Positions 10,472 through 40,655 of a stretch of DNA of 61,862 nucleotides are shown one piece after another. Position 1 is the stretch's first letter; each line of letters begins with the position of its first letter. Source of the DNA: a virus; IMG/VR virus record IMGVR_UViG_3300042937_000071, positions 1-61,862 of that record, one strand, 5' to 3'. Made by a program: the position numbers and the translations under genes. Under the pieces are notes generated by a model, which was not told the origin of the DNA, searched no databases, and saw only the letters and a list, made by a program, of their open reading frames with translations.

Positions 10472-10828
10472 ATGGCACATTTTGCAAAAGTAGTCGACGG
10501 TAAAGTCTCTCAAGTCATCGTCGCTGAACCTGAATTCTTCCAAACCTTCGTGGACTCAAGCCCCGGCGAGTGGATTCAGACCTCGTACAACACACATGGT
10601 GGCGTTCACAAGAACGGTGGCACTCCATTGCGTAAGAACTACGCAGGGATCGGCTACACCTACGACCGCACTCGTGATGCGTTCATCCCTCCTCAACCCT
10701 TTGCTTCATGGACTCTCGACGAGCAAACTTGCTTGTGGAATGCACCAGTGGCTATGCCTGCTGATGGCAAGTTCTACAACTGGGATGAGGCTACAACTGC
10801 TTGGGTTGAAGTTCCTGCACAAAAATAA
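10472..10828 (+). CDS. Conserved phage protein of unknown function
   Basis: 118 residues with a good ribosome site (AAGGAG). The sequence MAHFAKVVDGKVSQVIVAEP, then PLRKNYAGIGYTYD and RDAFIPPQPFASW, is of a type that I recall as widespread in aquatic phages, including cyanophages, usually beside fibre or virion genes. It is aromatic-rich and probably a compact beta fold. No catalytic motif is seen. Lying between two glycine-rich adhesins, it could be a fibre-associated or chaperone-like protein, but this is only contextual. Confidence 0.7.
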   Translation: MAHFAKVVDGKVSQVIVAEPEFFQTFVDSSPGEWIQTSYNTHGGVHKNGGTPLRKNYAGIGYTYDRTRDAFIPPQPFASWTLDEQTCLWNAPVAMPADGKFYNWDEATTAWVEVPAQK

Positions 10829-10844
10829 TTAAGGAGACCGCGTC

Positions 10845-11780
10845 ATGGCGCAAATAATTTCAGGAACCGATGGAACGGTGTTTTCGTCATGGACGACTGC
10901 TGGTCGCCCTGTTTCTCCTTCTGTGGGCCAGCAAGGCTATAACACTACCCTTTCGTCAATGGAGTATTGGAATGGCACTCTTTGGGCGCAATTTGGTCAA
11001 TCATCCGCACCATCAGTAACTTATTTGGTTGTTGCGGGTGGAGGTGGCGGTGGTAGAAAAGGTGGAGGTGGTGGAGCAGGTGGATACCAAACATCTACTT
11101 TAGCCGTTGCATCAGGTTCTGCTTTAACTGTTACTGTTGGGGCAGGTGGCGCAGGCTCCAGTTCAACTGGCGCAAAAGGTGTAAATGGTTCTGATTCTGT
11201 TTTTTCATCAGTAACTTCAACTGGAGGCGGGGGCGGAGGTTCAGACCAAACAAGTTTCCAAAATGGAGCAAATGGTGGTTCTGGAGGTGGTGCGGCTGGT
11301 GGTGGATATTCTCCATCTGGTAGTGGCGGCTCTGGAACTGGAGGTCAAGGAAATGCTGGCGCAGGAAATATTGGAAGTTCTCCATTTAACGGAGGTGGCG
11401 GAGGTGGCGCTGGCGCGGCTGGTTCTACAAACGGCAACGGTGGTAATGGTTCAGCATCTTCTATATCAGGCTCTTCTGTAACTTACGCAGGTGGTGGAGG
11501 TGGCGGTGGAGACACTTCTCCTAGTGGCACTGGTGGAACTGGTGGTGGTGGAGCGGGTGGAGCGGGTGGCGGTGCATCTGTAGCGGGAACGGCTAATACA
11601 GGCGGAGGCGGAGGTGGAGGTGGTAATGCTTCAAATGGCTCTGCTGGAGGCTCTGGAATTGTTATTATTTCCTACGCTTCATCTTACAAACTTGCTACAT
11701 ACACTGGGACTTGCACTCAAACAACCTTTGGTGGAAATTACATCTTCACTTTTACAGGCTCTGGAACAATCACTTTCTAA
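10845..11780 (+). CDS. Glycine-rich tail fibre adhesin 3
   Basis: 311 residues, the shortest of the three paralogues. The N-terminal part (SSWTTAGRPVSPSVGQQGYN) replaces the longer head of the other two. VTYLVVAGGGGGGRKGGGGG then opens a region of glycine runs (residues 60-270). The end (YTGTCTQTTFGGNYIFTFTG) is a beta closing segment. It is preceded by AAGGAGACC. Together with the other two it gives the phage three adhesin modules in 4.1 kb. Confidence 0.78.
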   Translation: MAQIISGTDGTVFSSWTTAGRPVSPSVGQQGYNTTLSSMEYWNGTLWAQFGQSSAPSVTYLVVAGGGGGGRKGGGGGAGGYQTSTLAVASGSALTVTVGAGGAGSSSTGAKGVNGSDSVFSSVTSTGGGGGGSDQTSFQNGANGGSGGGAAGGGYSPSGSGGSGTGGQGNAGAGNIGSSPFNGGGGGGAGAAGSTNGNGGNGSASSISGSSVTYAGGGGGGGDTSPSGTGGTGGGGAGGAGGGASVAGTANTGGGGGGGGNASNGSAGGSGIVIISYASSYKLATYTGTCTQTTFGGNYIFTFTGSGTITF

Positions 11781-31787: not shown

Positions 31788-31800
31788 AGTTCGCTTTCAG

Positions 31801-31832
31801 GTTAAACACAGGCTGACTGTACCATGTTTAAC
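31801..31832. promoter_or_regulatory. Operator pair for the divergent early region
   Basis: Two inverted half-sites, GTTAAAC (31801-31807) and GTTTAAC (31826-31832), are 18 bp apart. One lies within the spacer of the leftward promoter and the other near its start point. The same GTTTAA core recurs inside the promoters at 37014, 38611 and 39604. The repressor at 31905 is the obvious candidate ligand; binding is inferred. Confidence 0.5.
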
Positions 31833-31844
31833 TTTAAGATACAA
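31816..31844 (-). promoter_or_regulatory. Leftward early promoter (candidate)
   Basis: On the minus strand TTGTAT (31844-31839) and TACAGT (31821-31816) are separated by 17 bp, a fair sigma70-type promoter for the SSB/nuclease operon. The spacer contains the GTTTAAC half-site. Confidence 0.5.
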
Positions 31845-31849
31845 CCCCC

Positions 31850-31877
31850 TTGACAAGGAATTTTTGTAGTGTATGAT
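31850..31877 (+). promoter_or_regulatory. Rightward early promoter
   Basis: TTGACA (31850-31855) and TATGAT (31872-31877) with a 16-bp spacer, a near-consensus sigma70 promoter. It drives the repressor-like gene at 31905 and the replication operon. The 16-bp spacer is shared with the three promoters at 37014, 38611 and 39604. Confidence 0.82.
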
Positions 31878-31904
31878 CACCTTAAACCAACCCAAGGAGA
31901 GTGT

Positions 31905-35724: not shown

Positions 35725-36060
35725 ATGTCTACTGAAGACCGAGACCCACACAAGGCCGTTGACTACATCATCGTCAACGCAAAGAAGTTTGCCAAGGCGA
35801 AGGCAGAGCGCGTGTACCTTGAGGAGTATCGCAAGTCCCTCAAAGCAATACTCATGAAGCGCTCGATGGAAAACGCAATCGGTGCGCAAGAGCGTGAAGC
35901 ATACGCGCACGATGAATATGTTCAATTGCTCAATGGCTTGAAAGAGGCCATCGAGGTTGAGGAGAAACTCCGCTGGGATTTGATTGGTGCGCAGGCCCGG
36001 GTGGAGATATGGCGCACAGAGCAGGCGAATAATCGCGCTGAAGGAAAGGCGACGATATGA
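35725..36060 (+). CDS. Conserved helical phage protein
   Basis: 111 residues, preceded by AAAGGATAAGTA. Highly helical and charged (DYIIVNAKKFAKAKAERVYL; LNGLKEAIEVEEKLRWDLIG). Proteins of this layout occur in phage early regions with unknown role. The stop overlaps the next ATG by four bases. Confidence 0.65.
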   Translation: MSTEDRDPHKAVDYIIVNAKKFAKAKAERVYLEEYRKSLKAILMKRSMENAIGAQEREAYAHDEYVQLLNGLKEAIEVEEKLRWDLIGAQARVEIWRTEQANNRAEGKATI

Positions 36061-36698: not shown

Positions 36699-36984
36699 AG
36701 CCGAAAAGAAGTACATGAGCCGGGTGGCCGACCTTGGCTGTGCCGTATGCCGCCGCATGGGGTATCCCGGCACCCCGGCAGAACTACACCATCCAAGGGC
36801 CGGAACGGGGGCCGGGAGACGCGCAAGCCACATGGATGTCATCCCACTATGCCCAGAGCATCATCGCGGCTCTACGGGCCTACATGGCCTCGGGACTAAG
36901 GGGTTCCCTAAGAAATGGGGGTTCGATGAGGCTGACCTGCTGGCCGACACCCGTCTTTTGCTGAATCAGGACATCCTAGGGTAA
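36685..36984 (+). CDS. HNH / Ref-like nuclease
   Basis: 99 residues from GTG 36685. CAVCRRMGYPGTPAELHHPR and DVIPLCPEHHRG provide paired Cys for zinc plus the His of an HNH/beta-beta-alpha-Me nuclease core, followed by GLHGLGTKGF. This is the layout of P1 Ref-type (RecA-dependent) phage nucleases, which are slightly longer. It would nick or cut DNA during recombination. The stop codon is inside a palindrome (CTAGGGTAAATCCCTAG) belonging to the downstream promoter cassette. Confidence 0.78.
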   Translation: MSATKAEKKYMSRVADLGCAVCRRMGYPGTPAELHHPRAGTGAGRRASHMDVIPLCPEHHRGSTGLHGLGTKGFPKKWGFDEADLLADTRLLLNQDILG

Positions 36985-37095
36985 ATCCCTAGAAAATATT
37001 TTGCAAAAAGGTGTTGACATGGTTTAAGTCTGGGTTATACTAACACCACTGACCAAGCAATTCCGCCGTCAGGTAACAACGAAAGCGAGTTAAAC
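36976..37095 (+). promoter_or_regulatory. Promoter-leader cassette, copy 1
   Basis: Palindrome CTAGGG-TAAAT-CCCTAG (36976-36992), then 21 bp, then TTGACA (37014-37019), a 16-bp spacer containing GGTTTAAG, and TATACT (37036-37041). The leader carries a hairpin (CTGAC 37049 / GTCAG 37068) followed by AGGTAACAACGAAAGCGAG and GTTAAAC directly before the start codon. Copies 2 and 3 share the same order of elements. It drives 37096 and 37397. Confidence 0.75.
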
Positions 37096-37383
37096 ATGAA
37101 CACAATCACTACCACCCAAGTCGACACCCTCGGCCAACTCCTCGCTCAGATCGCTGATCTGACCAAGCAGGCTGATGCCATCAAGGATCAGTTCAAAGAC
37201 GACGCCTCAGCAGGCGGCGCCAAGGCAGTCGAAGGCGACTTGTTCAAAGCCACCTACATCGAGTCCAACCGCTCTACGGTTGACTACAAAGCCCTCTGCG
37301 CCGCTCTTGGCATCACTGCTGAACAGATCGCTGAGTACACCAAGACCACCGCTGTGTTCAGCGTCAAAGTAACCAGCCGTTAA
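37096..37383 (+). CDS. Hypothetical protein under cassette promoter 1
   Basis: 95 residues. Helical N-terminus (TLGQLLAQIADLTKQADAIK), then FKATYIESNRSTVDYKALCA and a C-terminal beta end (AVFSVKVTSR), reminiscent of small phage-encoded Gam/Gp157-like regulators but too short to assign. It has no strong AGGAGG; the leader ends GAAAGCGAGTTAAAC. Strong codon bias towards C-ending codons suggests high expression. Confidence 0.65.
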   Translation: MNTITTTQVDTLGQLLAQIADLTKQADAIKDQFKDDASAGGAKAVEGDLFKATYIESNRSTVDYKALCAALGITAEQIAEYTKTTAVFSVKVTSR

Positions 37384-37396
37384 TCAAGGGGCCACC

Positions 37397-37615
37397 ATGA
37401 AATACAAACTCAATGTGGCCCGCGATGTCGACACCGACGAACCCGGTGTCTTCATCCTGAATCTGCCCGGTGGCTGGAAGTTCACGCACGACCCAATGGC
37501 CCTGTGTCATACCTACGCATACGATTCGATGAGCGAGTTGCGTGCGGACATCAAGTACTCGGTCGAGCCATGCGACTGTGCCGAGTGCAAGCGAATGACT
37601 GCTGAAGGCAAATAA
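37397..37615 (+). CDS. Small hypothetical protein with C-terminal cysteines
   Basis: 72 residues. Begins MKYKLNVARDVDTDEPGVFI, contains LNLPGGWKFTHDP, and ends with CDCAECKRMTAEGK, a three-cysteine cluster that could bind metal. It follows the previous gene by 13 bases and is closed by a terminator. No family recognised. Confidence 0.62.
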   Translation: MKYKLNVARDVDTDEPGVFILNLPGGWKFTHDPMALCHTYAYDSMSELRADIKYSVEPCDCAECKRMTAEGK

Positions 37616-37618
37616 CCC

Positions 37619-37641
37619 GGGGGCTTCGGCCCCCTTTTTTT
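37619..37641 (+). terminator. Rho-independent terminator
   Basis: GGGGGC/GCCCCC stem with TTCG loop and seven T. It ends the transcript started at the 37014 promoter. Confidence 0.9.
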
Positions 37642-37653
37642 GATGGAGTTTTT

Positions 37654-38160
37654 ATGATTGATCAATTCGATATGTTTGACGGTGAGGGCGCGTTCCTTGC
37701 AAAGATGCGCCACGACTGGAACAAGGCCATCGAGAGCGAGGGCGCCTTCTGCCCTTGCTGTGGCAAGTGGGGGAAGGTTTACAAGATTAAGTTGAGCCAG
37801 CACCTCGCGTTGTGCCTGCGCTGGATTTCAATCAACGGTGACGAGGACGGCTGGGTCGATGTGCAGAACACGGCGCCCCGGTGGATGCTCAAGAGCAAGA
37901 CCTACCCACTGCTGGAGCATTGGGCCTTGATTGATTCGCAGGCCAAGCGCTCCGGTGTGTGGCGTGCCACCCTCAAGGGTCAAGACTTCATTAACGGTGT
38001 TACCACGATGCCTTCCGCCGTTCACATTTACGATAACAAGGTGTGGGGCTTTGAATCGGAAGAGGTCTCGTTCCGCAGTTGCTTTGGTAAGCACTTTGAC
38101 TTTGACGAGATGATGTCCGACCAGTTCCGCTGGGCCAACCTACAGGAGAAAAAGAAATGA
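37654..38160 (+). CDS. Hypothetical protein with Cys-rich zinc motif
   Basis: 168 residues. FCPCCGKWGKVYKIKLSQHL near 30-50 contains CPCC and a nearby His/Cys pair, consistent with a zinc site preceding a helix-turn-like segment (SQHLALCLRWIS). The rest is mixed alpha/beta. Likely a nucleic-acid-binding or regulatory protein; not recognised. Its stop overlaps the next ATG. Confidence 0.6.
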   Translation: MIDQFDMFDGEGAFLAKMRHDWNKAIESEGAFCPCCGKWGKVYKIKLSQHLALCLRWISINGDEDGWVDVQNTAPRWMLKSKTYPLLEHWALIDSQAKRSGVWRATLKGQDFINGVTTMPSAVHIYDNKVWGFESEEVSFRSCFGKHFDFDEMMSDQFRWANLQEKKK

Positions 38161-38324
38161 CCAAACCGTATACCCCGGAAGATGTGCAGTACATCAAAGG
38201 CTTCGAGGCCGGGTGCGACTACATCGTGGCCGAGATCGAGCGGTACATCGAGGTGTACCCCAGCAAGGAGTTTGTCCTGCATGAATTGCTGGCCCACCTC
38301 AAGATGGAAGATAAGCCGCAATGA
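38157..38324 (+). CDS. Small hypothetical protein
   Basis: 55 residues: TPEDVQYIKGFEAGCDYIVA, acidic helix, then EFVLHELLAHLKMEDKP. Translationally coupled to both neighbours by four-base overlaps. No family recognised. Confidence 0.6.
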   Translation: MTKPYTPEDVQYIKGFEAGCDYIVAEIERYIEVYPSKEFVLHELLAHLKMEDKPQ

Positions 38325-38515
38325 AGCGCAGGCATCCGCTGGCATGGGTGTTTGTCAAGAAGAAAACCGCCAAGCGATTCGACAAGACCAAGATGGCGTC
38401 ATGCAGGCGTAACCACCTGCGGCGCTGGGAGATGCTGGCGCGGTTTCTTCATGTCAGGCACCGGGCGTGGCAGTACAAGCCTGCCCGCAGTTACAGGGTG
38501 AAGCGCAATGGGTGA
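38321..38515 (+). CDS. Small highly basic protein
   Basis: 64 residues, Arg/Lys-rich (KKKTAKRFDKTKMASCRRNH; WQYKPARSYRVKRNG), probably nucleic-acid binding. Overlaps both neighbours. No family recognised. Confidence 0.58.
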   Translation: MKRRHPLAWVFVKKKTAKRFDKTKMASCRRNHLRRWEMLARFLHVRHRAWQYKPARSYRVKRNG

Positions 38516-38624
38516 GCCAATCAAGTCTCCCTTCTGGCACATCCTTCAGCGAGAAATCGAGGCCCGGAAGGCATTAGGGAAAGTCCCTACAAATAAATCT
38601 CAAAAACCTGTTGACAAGGTTTAA
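38508..38624 (+). CDS. Small ORF running into promoter cassette 2
   Basis: 38 residues (PFWHILQREIEARKALGKVP), starting by overlap with the preceding gene. Its stop codon TAA lies inside the spacer of the promoter at 38611, within the GGTTTAAG element. Translation from the upstream transcript would therefore pass over the cassette palindrome and -35 region. Coding status moderately supported by the overlap only. Confidence 0.45.
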   Translation: MGEPIKSPFWHILQREIEARKALGKVPTNKSQKPVDKV

Positions 38625-38692
38625 GACAGTGTTAAACTACCATCACTGACCGCATGGTGTGGTCAGGCAAACAAATGAAAGCGAGTTAAACC
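38575..38692 (+). promoter_or_regulatory. Promoter-leader cassette, copy 2
   Basis: Palindrome TAGGGA-AAG-TCCCTA (38575-38589), 21 bp, TTGACA (38611-38616), 16-bp spacer with GGTTTAAG, TAAACT (38633-38638). Leader hairpin CTGACC (38646-38651)/GGTCAG (38661-38666), then GAAAGCGA and GTTAAAC (38685-38691) at the start codon. Same element order and spacing as copy 1. Drives the DUF932 gene. Confidence 0.75.
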
Positions 38693-39550
38693 ATGTACCA
38701 ATATGCCCGTTCTGCAAACCAGACATCTTTCCGCTCTAACGCTCCTTTGAGCAACGAGCAAATTGCCCAGTACGCCCCAAGCGTGTTGGCTGAGACTGCC
38801 CACGAGTCCCGTGGTGAGCGTTACACCTTCATTCCTACCATCAATGTTCTTGACGGCCTGCGCAACGAAGGTTTCCAGCCTTTCGAGGTTCGTCAGACCC
38901 GCGTCAAGGATCAATCCCGTCGCGAGTTCACCAAGCACATGGTGCGTCTGCGTCACGCCACCAGCATCGAGGCCGCTGTAGGTGAAGAAGTGCCTGAGAT
39001 CGTGCTGATCAACAGCCATGACGGCTCTTCGTCCTACCAGTTGCTGGCCGGGTTCTTCCGCTTGGTTTGCTCCAACGGCCTGATCGCTGGCGACATCTGC
39101 AACGACATCCGCGTGCGTCACTCCGGCAATGTGATCGACGATGTGATCGAGGGTTCGTTCCGCGTTCTGGACAATGTCGAGGAGATCGGCTCCCGCATCG
39201 AGACCTACAAGGCCATCGAACTCAAGCCAGAAGAGCAGTCCCTGTTCGCTAATGCGGCCCTGCAATTGCGTTGGGACGACAAGGCCCCTGTTGAGGCTGA
39301 CCGCATCTTGCGTGCCCGCCGCTGGGCCGACAACAAGACCGACCTCTGGACAACCTTTAACCGGGTGCAGGAGAACATGATCAAGGGTGGTGTGGCTGGC
39401 CGCTCCGCGACTGGTCGCCGTATGTCCACCCGCGCTGTTGGCGGCGTCAATGAGAATGTCAAGTTGAACCGCGCCCTTTGGACGCTGGCTGACGGCTTGG
39501 CCCAACTCAAGCAGGGCGCCGTGGACATCGAGGAATTGGTGGCCGCGTAA
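38693..39550 (+). CDS. DUF932 protein (phage/plasmid-like)
   Basis: 285 residues. The DUF932 pattern is visible: FIPTINVLDGLRNEGFQPFE, KHMVRLRH, IVLINSHDGSSSYQLLAGFF, RLVCSNGLI, and a C-terminal helical region. The family is widespread on phages and plasmids; its molecular role is not established, though it is often near recombination or early genes. It is alone in its transcription unit with a strong promoter and terminator, and its codon use suggests abundant expression. Confidence 0.82.
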   Translation: MYQYARSANQTSFRSNAPLSNEQIAQYAPSVLAETAHESRGERYTFIPTINVLDGLRNEGFQPFEVRQTRVKDQSRREFTKHMVRLRHATSIEAAVGEEVPEIVLINSHDGSSSYQLLAGFFRLVCSNGLIAGDICNDIRVRHSGNVIDDVIEGSFRVLDNVEEIGSRIETYKAIELKPEEQSLFANAALQLRWDDKAPVEADRILRARRWADNKTDLWTTFNRVQENMIKGGVAGRSATGRRMSTRAVGGVNENVKLNRALWTLADGLAQLKQGAVDIEELVAA

Positions 39551-39555
39551 GGCAG

Positions 39556-39576
39556 GGGGCTTCGGCCCCTTTTTTT
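39556..39576 (+). terminator. Rho-independent terminator
   Basis: GGGGC/GCCCC stem with TTCG loop followed by seven T. It ends the DUF932 transcript and abuts cassette copy 3. Confidence 0.9.
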
Positions 39577-39578
39577 AT

Positions 39579-39672
39579 TAGGGAAAGCACCTATAAAAAT
39601 ACTTTGACAATGTTTAATTTTGAGTTATACTAATCTCACTGCAATAAGCAGGTAACAGCGAAGGAAAGCGAA
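39579..39672 (+). promoter_or_regulatory. Promoter-leader cassette, copy 3
   Basis: Imperfect palindrome TAGGGAAAGCACCTA (39579-39593), 10 bp, TTGACA (39604-39609), 16-bp spacer with TGTTTAAT, TATACT (39626-39631). Leader hairpin CTGC-AATAA-GCAG (39639-39651), then GGTAACAGCGAAGGAAAGCGA. The palindrome is one helical turn (10 bp) from -35 here and two turns (21 bp) in copies 1 and 2. Confidence 0.72.
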
Positions 39673-40544: not shown

Positions 40545-40625
40545 AAAGCGAATGTATAGCGAACAGGTAGCGAACTCAAACCGAGTCGGTTACTCAAGGG
40601 GTGGTGACCCTCTACCAACACCGGA

Positions 40626-40655
40626 GGCCCGCACACGATGCGGGTCTTCCTTTTT
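40626..40655 (+). terminator. Rho-independent terminator
   Basis: CCCGCA/TGCGGG stem (40628-40633/40639-40644) with CACGA loop, followed by TCTTCCTTTTT. The 80 bases before it (40545-40625) hold no recognisable gene or tRNA. Confidence 0.8.

Follow-up and report, generated by a model that had tools for sequence, protein, structure and literature searches.

Probable Cro-type operators and an activator-like palindrome in a promoter-leader cassette repeated in an uncultured freshwater phage and its relatives

The window analyzed here is the whole of IMG/VR record IMGVR_UViG_3300042937_000071, an uncultured freshwater phage of 61,862 bp. An earlier note had described in it three promoter-leader cassettes, each with a TAGGG palindrome, a TTGACA-type promoter holding GTTTAA in its spacer and a hairpin in the 5' leader, and had proposed a dedicated regulon with an activator at the palindrome and a repressor at GTTTAA. 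All of these elements were recovered where the note had placed them (Table 1), and the distance from palindrome to TTGACA, counted from the 15-bp TAGGG..CCTA core, was 21-22, 21, and 10 bp (21, 21, and 10 bp in the note). The pattern GTTTAA-N7-TTAWACTA has exactly three matches in the 61,862 bp and its reversed control has none, and mismatch-free TAGGG-N6-CCTA occurs in the record only at the three cassettes. As judged from sequence, the cassette is a real and conserved regulatory unit: its anatomy and conservation, the joint switching of protein and operator, the phasing of the palindrome and the covariation of leader base pairs can all be read there. We consider it likely that each copy is a sigma-70-type phage promoter equipped with a Cro-type operator, an activator palindrome and a 5' stem-loop.

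Table 1. Positions of the cassette elements, the YdaS/Cro-like gene and its control region in the window
Feature	Position	Strand	Details
Palindrome copy 1 (proposed activator site), CTAGGGTAAATCCCTAG	36976-36992	+	centre ~-64 from predicted start
Palindrome copy 2, TTAGGGAAAGTCCCTAC	38574-38590	+	centre ~-63 from predicted start
Palindrome copy 3, TTAGGGAAAGCACCTAT	39578-39594	+	imperfect; centre ~-52 from predicted start
Promoter P1	37014-37041	+	-35 TTGACA 37014-37019, spacer 16 bp, -10 TATACT 37036-37041
Promoter P2	38611-38638	+	TTGACA at 38611, spacer 16 bp, -10 TAAACT
Promoter P3	39604-39631	+	TTGACA at 39604, spacer 16 bp, -10 TATACT
Putative operator copy 1, GTTTAA-N7-TTATAC	37022-37040	+	
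Putative operator copy 2, GTTTAA-N7-TTAAAC	38619-38637	+	perfect dyad
Putative operator copy 3, GTTTAA-N7-TTATAC	39612-39630	+	
5' leader hairpin copy 1, CTGAC..GTCAG	37049-37072	+	begins ~+2
5' leader hairpin copy 2, CTGACCGCA/TGTGGTCAG	38646-38666	+	
5' leader hairpin copy 3, CTGC-AATAA-GCAG	39639-39651	+	
Leader element GAAAGCGA copy 1	37081-37088	+	precedes ATG 37096 of 95-amino-acid gene
Leader element GAAAGCGA copy 2	38677-38684	+	precedes DUF932 gene, ATG 38693
Leader element GAAAGCGA copy 3	39664-39671	+	overlaps normal AAGGA Shine-Dalgarno; precedes ATG 39673 of 70-amino-acid gene
YdaS/Cro-like helix-turn-helix repressor, 69 amino acids	31905-32114	+	proposed operator binder
O_R, GTGTAT-N7-TTAAAC	31869-31887	.	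rightward promoter (-35 at 31850): spans its -10 (31872-31877) and start region
O_L, GTTTAA-N7-ATACAA	31826-31844	.	across -35 of leftward promoter (minus strand TTGTAT-17-TACAGT)
Half-site GTTTAAC and GAAAGCGA	31789-31807	-	leader of leftward operon, start codon 31787

Relatives were gathered by a search with the DUF932 protein and by DNA-pattern scans of viral contigs. More than 100 contigs of uncultured phages, all environmental records, were found to hold close variants of the cassette, often in several copies per contig. The proposed dedicated multi-promoter regulon is supported. In the spacer, GTTTAA forms the first half of an inverted repeat of 19 bp, GTTTAA-N7-TTAAAC/TTATAC; the other half runs into the -10. 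In a conservation scan anchored on the -10 and the leader, so that GTTTAA was not required by the query, all its bases were invariant at a fixed offset in 85 of 85 unique cassettes (29 of 29 after removal of redundancy), and the -35 was less conserved, with a varying sequence and a 1-base shift in part of the 85. In 14 further cassettes, termed "shifted", the -10 (TACAAT, TATACT) falls within the N7 and the dyad sits 6 bp further downstream, with TTACAC or TTAAAC as the second arm. Because this class keeps the dyad, the repeat is conserved in its own right and not as a by-product of the -10.

The YdaS/Cro-like protein encoded from 31905 very probably has this dyad as its operator. The protein matches Pfam PF15943 (E 9.6e-13), falls into a PHROG transcriptional repressor family and has PDB entries 8co2 and 8c7k ("antirepressor Cro") as its nearest solved structures (E ~2e-13); proteins of this type were found in 18 of 21 long relative contigs. 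In an AlphaFold model of the YdaS-like protein (predicted local distance difference test, pLDDT, 92), residues 25-27 lie at the start of the recognition helix (residues 26-34), and their counterparts in 434 repressor are glutamines 28 and 29, which contact bases. The divergent control region of the gene holds two further candidate operators, O_R and O_L, which share the 6-7-6 spacing of the cassettes and are kept in relatives, O_R lying across the -10 of the gene's own promoter. In the leftward leader, a minus-strand GTTTAAC (31800-31807) followed by GAAAGCGA (31791) is likewise kept in many relatives and may represent a third operator arm, placed where the transcript begins.

The closest known counterpart is the YdaS of the Escherichia coli O157:H7 prophage CP-933P, a Cro analogue that protects 18-bp palindromes (arm consensus GTTTAGTAA) and represses the promoters which these overlap (PMC8630535). 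Both systems have a protein of the same family (PF15943), a divergent control region, inverted repeats with GTTTA arms over promoters and several promoters under one Cro-like protein. CP-933P differs in that its 18-bp sites lie in PRM, PR, and PL and a CI analogue is present, whereas here the putative operators are 19 bp long (6-7-6), occur also at three distant promoters and are accompanied by the palindrome and the 5' hairpin, and no CI or integrase was found. As with lambda Cro/CI and P1 C1, a small helix-turn-helix (HTH) dimer is proposed to act at inverted repeats near the -10; unlike those systems, no CI was found and the operators belong to a promoter-leader cassette that is itself repeated and also has an activator-like site. 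Searches with PF00589 (integrase) and PF01381 (HTH_3) gave no match in this record, which may be incomplete, and since neither a CI nor an integrase was found the present evidence does not lead us to class the region with lambda-type immunity switches. The repressor part of the cassette is thus probably best described as a YdaS/Cro operator regulon.

The assignment of protein to operator is carried by their joint variation. In some of the phages with the palindrome, GTTTAA-N7-TTAWAC is replaced by GTGAAA-N7-TTACAC, while the leader is of the same kind. A YdaS homologue was present on the contig in 6 of 31 records searched, all six belonging to this GTGAAA class, and its recognition helix begins with TKQ rather than SKT. 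The site at the P_R of these TKQ genomes themselves reads GTGTAT-N7-TTTCAC in 6 of 6, as opposed to a TTAAAC-like arm in SKT genomes, and a third class, with CTTTAA operators, pairs with YdaS proteins that lack the lysine (SLT, SQT, TPT). When distinct YdaS proteins whose locus also holds a cassette were compared, helix residues and operator arm were concordant in all 42 (33 SKT with GTTTAA, 4 TKQ with GTGAAA, and 5 without lysine with CTTTAA), so that proteins of the 31905 type very probably recognize the cassette operators. The idea of a repressor site at GTTTAA is therefore upheld both by its invariance in an unbiased cassette set and by its switching together with the Cro-like protein. A second, unrelated-looking Cro-like protein of 50 amino acids, found in other palindrome phages, covaries with spacer operators in the same way: a helix starting with Q goes with TATAAG-N4-CTTATA and one with R goes with GTTTAG, GTTAAG or GTTGAG arms, and in several cases a second operator copy lies upstream of cro itself.

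The consensus of the host regulator CtrA is TTAA-N7-TTAA (PMC9437464), a spacing that CtrA-controlled phages superficially share with the cassettes. The dyads might thus be host CtrA sites, as in some alphaproteobacterial phages; copy 2 matches the consensus exactly and the relatives of the portal protein include Caulobacter phages (48%). We regard this explanation as very improbable. Copies 1 and 3 have TTAT, the invariant arm is GTTTAA and not TTAA alone, and CtrA cannot explain why, at sites in close relatives, the arm changes to GTGAAA together with the phage's own HTH protein. Moreover, the Caulobacter-phage records lack the cassette, and relatives binned into metagenome-assembled genomes (MAGs), a binning that is unreliable for phage contigs, are mostly assigned to Betaproteobacteria, which to our knowledge have no CtrA. 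The covariation of arm and phage HTH protein sets the cassettes apart from CtrA-controlled phages, as would a host that is probably not alphaproteobacterial.

The predicted transcripts start at 37048, 38645, and 39638 (12 bp past the first base of the -10), and in all three the leader stem begins at +2. Among 76 non-redundant leaders a stem occurs at about +2 in 86%, compared with 28% of shuffled sequences (maximum 45%). These stems have many unrelated sequences (CTGAC/GTCAG, ATCGAC/GTCGAT, TCAAC/GTTGA, CTAAC/GTTAG, CTGG/CCAG, GACACCAA/TTGGTGTT), and a DUF932 promoter in contig L018 that lacks the GTTTAA operator has an unrelated, strong 7-bp 5' stem at the same place. Since leaders differ in length, RNAalifold on a mixed-length alignment gives only a 4-bp stem; covariation was instead counted on length-matched leaders, where pairing is 100% and three of seven pairs are changed on both sides (compensatory), and where sliding the partner lowers pairing to 15-32%. 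By its enrichment over shuffles and its compensatory changes the stem is a real feature, and it presumably protects the 5' end. In this it would resemble 5'-terminal stabilizing stem-loops of the ompA type, with a stem starting at about +2 and a ribosome site left free downstream. A different role, as an antitermination (put/nut-like) element or a site for a translational regulator, seems unlikely to us. Such a role would fit a hairpin conserved right at the 5' terminus, the AGCAAT..GC core that recurs in its loop, the conserved flanking GGTAAC and GCGA, and the intrinsic terminators inside these short operons. However, there is free variation in both stem and loop, with forms as small as CTGC-N5-GCAG and a stem as unrelated as ATCAGG/CCTGAT, as befits a structural role; the leader matched no Rfam family, and inspection by eye revealed no boxA-like element.

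Absence of a normal Shine-Dalgarno (SD) sequence, suggested earlier for these leaders, turned out to be half right: an SD-like core is present in only 103 of 196 cassette leaders, compared with 34 of 44 other gene starts in the window, but copy 3 has a normal AAGGA. A GCGA element lies near the start codon in 156 of the 196 leaders. In most relatives GAAAGCGA/GCGA stands just before the start codon, and about half of the leaders are without an SD-like core.

The palindrome varies in its distance from the operator but keeps step with the promoter. Relative to the predicted start, its centre lies at -41, -45, -52/-53, -62 to -66, -69 to -75, and -82/-85 in standard cassettes. Shifted cassettes have it at -53 to -56 or -63 to -65; as the centres hold where the operator is displaced by 6 bp, their register follows the -10 and not the operator. 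The spacing of the centres shows a periodicity that peaks at 10-10.5 bp (R 0.63 for 29 non-redundant cassettes, and 0.5-0.54 with each occupied position counted once), cassettes of the -41 class lack TTGACA, and an A-rich, UP-like stretch follows the palindrome. The centres occupy the classic class II and class I activator positions, on one helix face: centres near -41, -62, -72, and -82 recall promoters of the CRP/FNR type, from whose consensus sequences TAGGG-N5-CCCTA differs. The activator-like placement claimed earlier is thus supported by helical phasing relative to the promoter, and that the palindrome is an activator site is a well-supported inference from its position.

We give hardly any credence to the possibility that the three cassettes are recent duplicates, alike by descent and not by function. 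Leaders are alike within one genome and cassette copies probably do arise by duplication, but hundreds of diverged copies retain dyad, phasing and stems with compensatory change, and the operator switches together with the repressor.

The palindrome occurs in more than 120 contigs among the matches listed; 83 of 90 new sites are without the GTTTAA operator, and one contig with the palindrome (G004) has no YdaS. The palindrome is a module separate from the operator. Upstream of 7408 in L018 and on the minus strand near 9930 in L354 (G004), the palindrome accompanies a sigma-70-like promoter without a GTTTAA operator. In contigs L356-L444 (e.g., L359, L373, L389, L402, and L418) the palindrome and A-rich module are combined with other spacer operators, namely TATAAG-N4-CTTATA, GTTTAG-N4-CTATAC, GTTAAG-N4-CTTAAC, and GTTGAG... 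We tentatively suggest, giving it slightly less than an even chance, that palindrome, A-rich stretch, promoter, and 5' hairpin form a platform shared by many uncultured freshwater phage groups and served by an undescribed activator, into which each group inserts an operator matching the Cro-like repressor that it encodes. Such operators would include at least GTTTAA, CTTTAA, and GTGAAA with N7, and TATAAG, GTTTAG, GTTAAG, and GTTGAG with N4.

As for actual binding, direction of regulation, timing and RNA stability, we infer the following scheme. Each cassette would have a strong sigma-70-type promoter under three stacked controls. A dimer of the YdaS/Cro-like protein from 31905 would occupy the 19-bp operator between -35 and -10 and block RNA polymerase, and because the divergent promoters at 31826-31887, from which it is itself expressed, would be under the same protein, one Cro-type regulon would embrace the three cassettes as well as the early operons. 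The cassettes may be active soon after infection and be shut down as the Cro-like protein accumulates. An activator bound at the palindrome and A-rich stretch would contact RNA polymerase from a helically phased position, mostly as a class I factor near -62, and near -41 in the subset without a -35. The transcript would open with the stem-loop at about +2, which most likely shields the 5' end from decay and keeps the ribosome site free.

Several observations weigh against this scheme. No candidate binder of the palindrome common to all groups that carry it was found, the phage consensus of the palindrome occurs in 2 of 399 Burkholderiales genomes, where about five would be expected by chance, and two phase classes, -45 and -65, do not fall exactly on a 10.5-bp lattice. 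For the leader, single-sequence folds of the three copies in the window are unexceptional (z -0.7, -1.55, and -1.0). For the repressor, the protein tree of YdaS homologues contains two specificity switches, and as there are only two, relatedness limits the weight of the co-switching; in addition, the leftward O_L region of TKQ genomes has no GTGAAA.

Instead of an activator, the palindrome might serve a second repressor as its operator, or it might be a module of the UP-element type or one for a host nucleoid protein. The search yielded no activator gene, an A-rich UP-like stretch follows, and the palindrome is common to phages of several Cro classes, all of which would suit this alternative. 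We nevertheless find it rather unlikely: activators typically show, and repressors seldom do, centres from -41 to -82, 10-bp phasing to the -10, and a missing -35 such as that of the -41 class; strong dyad symmetry speaks against a plain UP element, and the palindrome is not a motif in the 399 Burkholderiales genomes. If an activator acts there, it is more likely phage-borne than part of a host regulon.

The 31905 product, which had been suggested for a binding test on the palindrome, is not supported as its binder, as its probable site is GTTTAA-N7-TTAAAC and the palindrome is found also in phages without a protein of this type. A 111-amino-acid protein (35725-36060) was considered as the activator and rejected: it is common to all palindrome classes but is also encoded by Pseudomonas and Vibrio phages, and two phages encoding it have no palindrome in the ~13-16 kb examined. 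A host-regulon motif was rejected as well, since 120 Burkholderiales genomes and the MAG-bin relatives have 0-6 sites of TAGGG-N5-CCCTA each, in general not exceeding the count for the reversed control. The exact 15-mer TAGGGTAATACCCTA is repeated in several Burkholderiales genomes (G056, G075, G108, G119, and G145) and is possibly the operator of a host regulator.

The palindrome is a widespread, precisely positioned promoter element in abundant uncultured phages, and a defined search for its binder is possible. The matched Cro-like repressors and operators form a natural series whose specificity-switching residues are readable from sequence, and which is useful for testing rules of protein-DNA recognition and the divergence of phage regulatory specificity.

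Neither a cultured phage nor a plasmid with the cassette was found in phage and plasmid collections, and the exact pattern, searched as a prophage route to the host, had no match in 257 Gb of bacterial and archaeal genomes. Relatives of the portal protein in genome collections were only MAG-binned phage contigs, mostly Betaproteobacteria or Burkholderiales, which gives a weak hint of a betaproteobacterial host, the binning of phage contigs being unreliable. The nearest named relative, MW202545.1 (L469, Manatee Spring), encodes a YdaS homologue at 10735-10935, annotated as an antitoxin and with ITLTW in place of SKTW; the 16 kb examined yielded no palindrome and no cassette.

Two smaller leader features reported earlier fared unevenly. 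Copies 1 and 2 do have GTTAAAC beside the start codon, but most relatives do not keep it, and the GGTAACA-like element is present but reads GGCAAACA in copy 2. Strong intrinsic terminators at 37619-37636, 39554-39572, and 40623-40649 split the cassette region into short operons.

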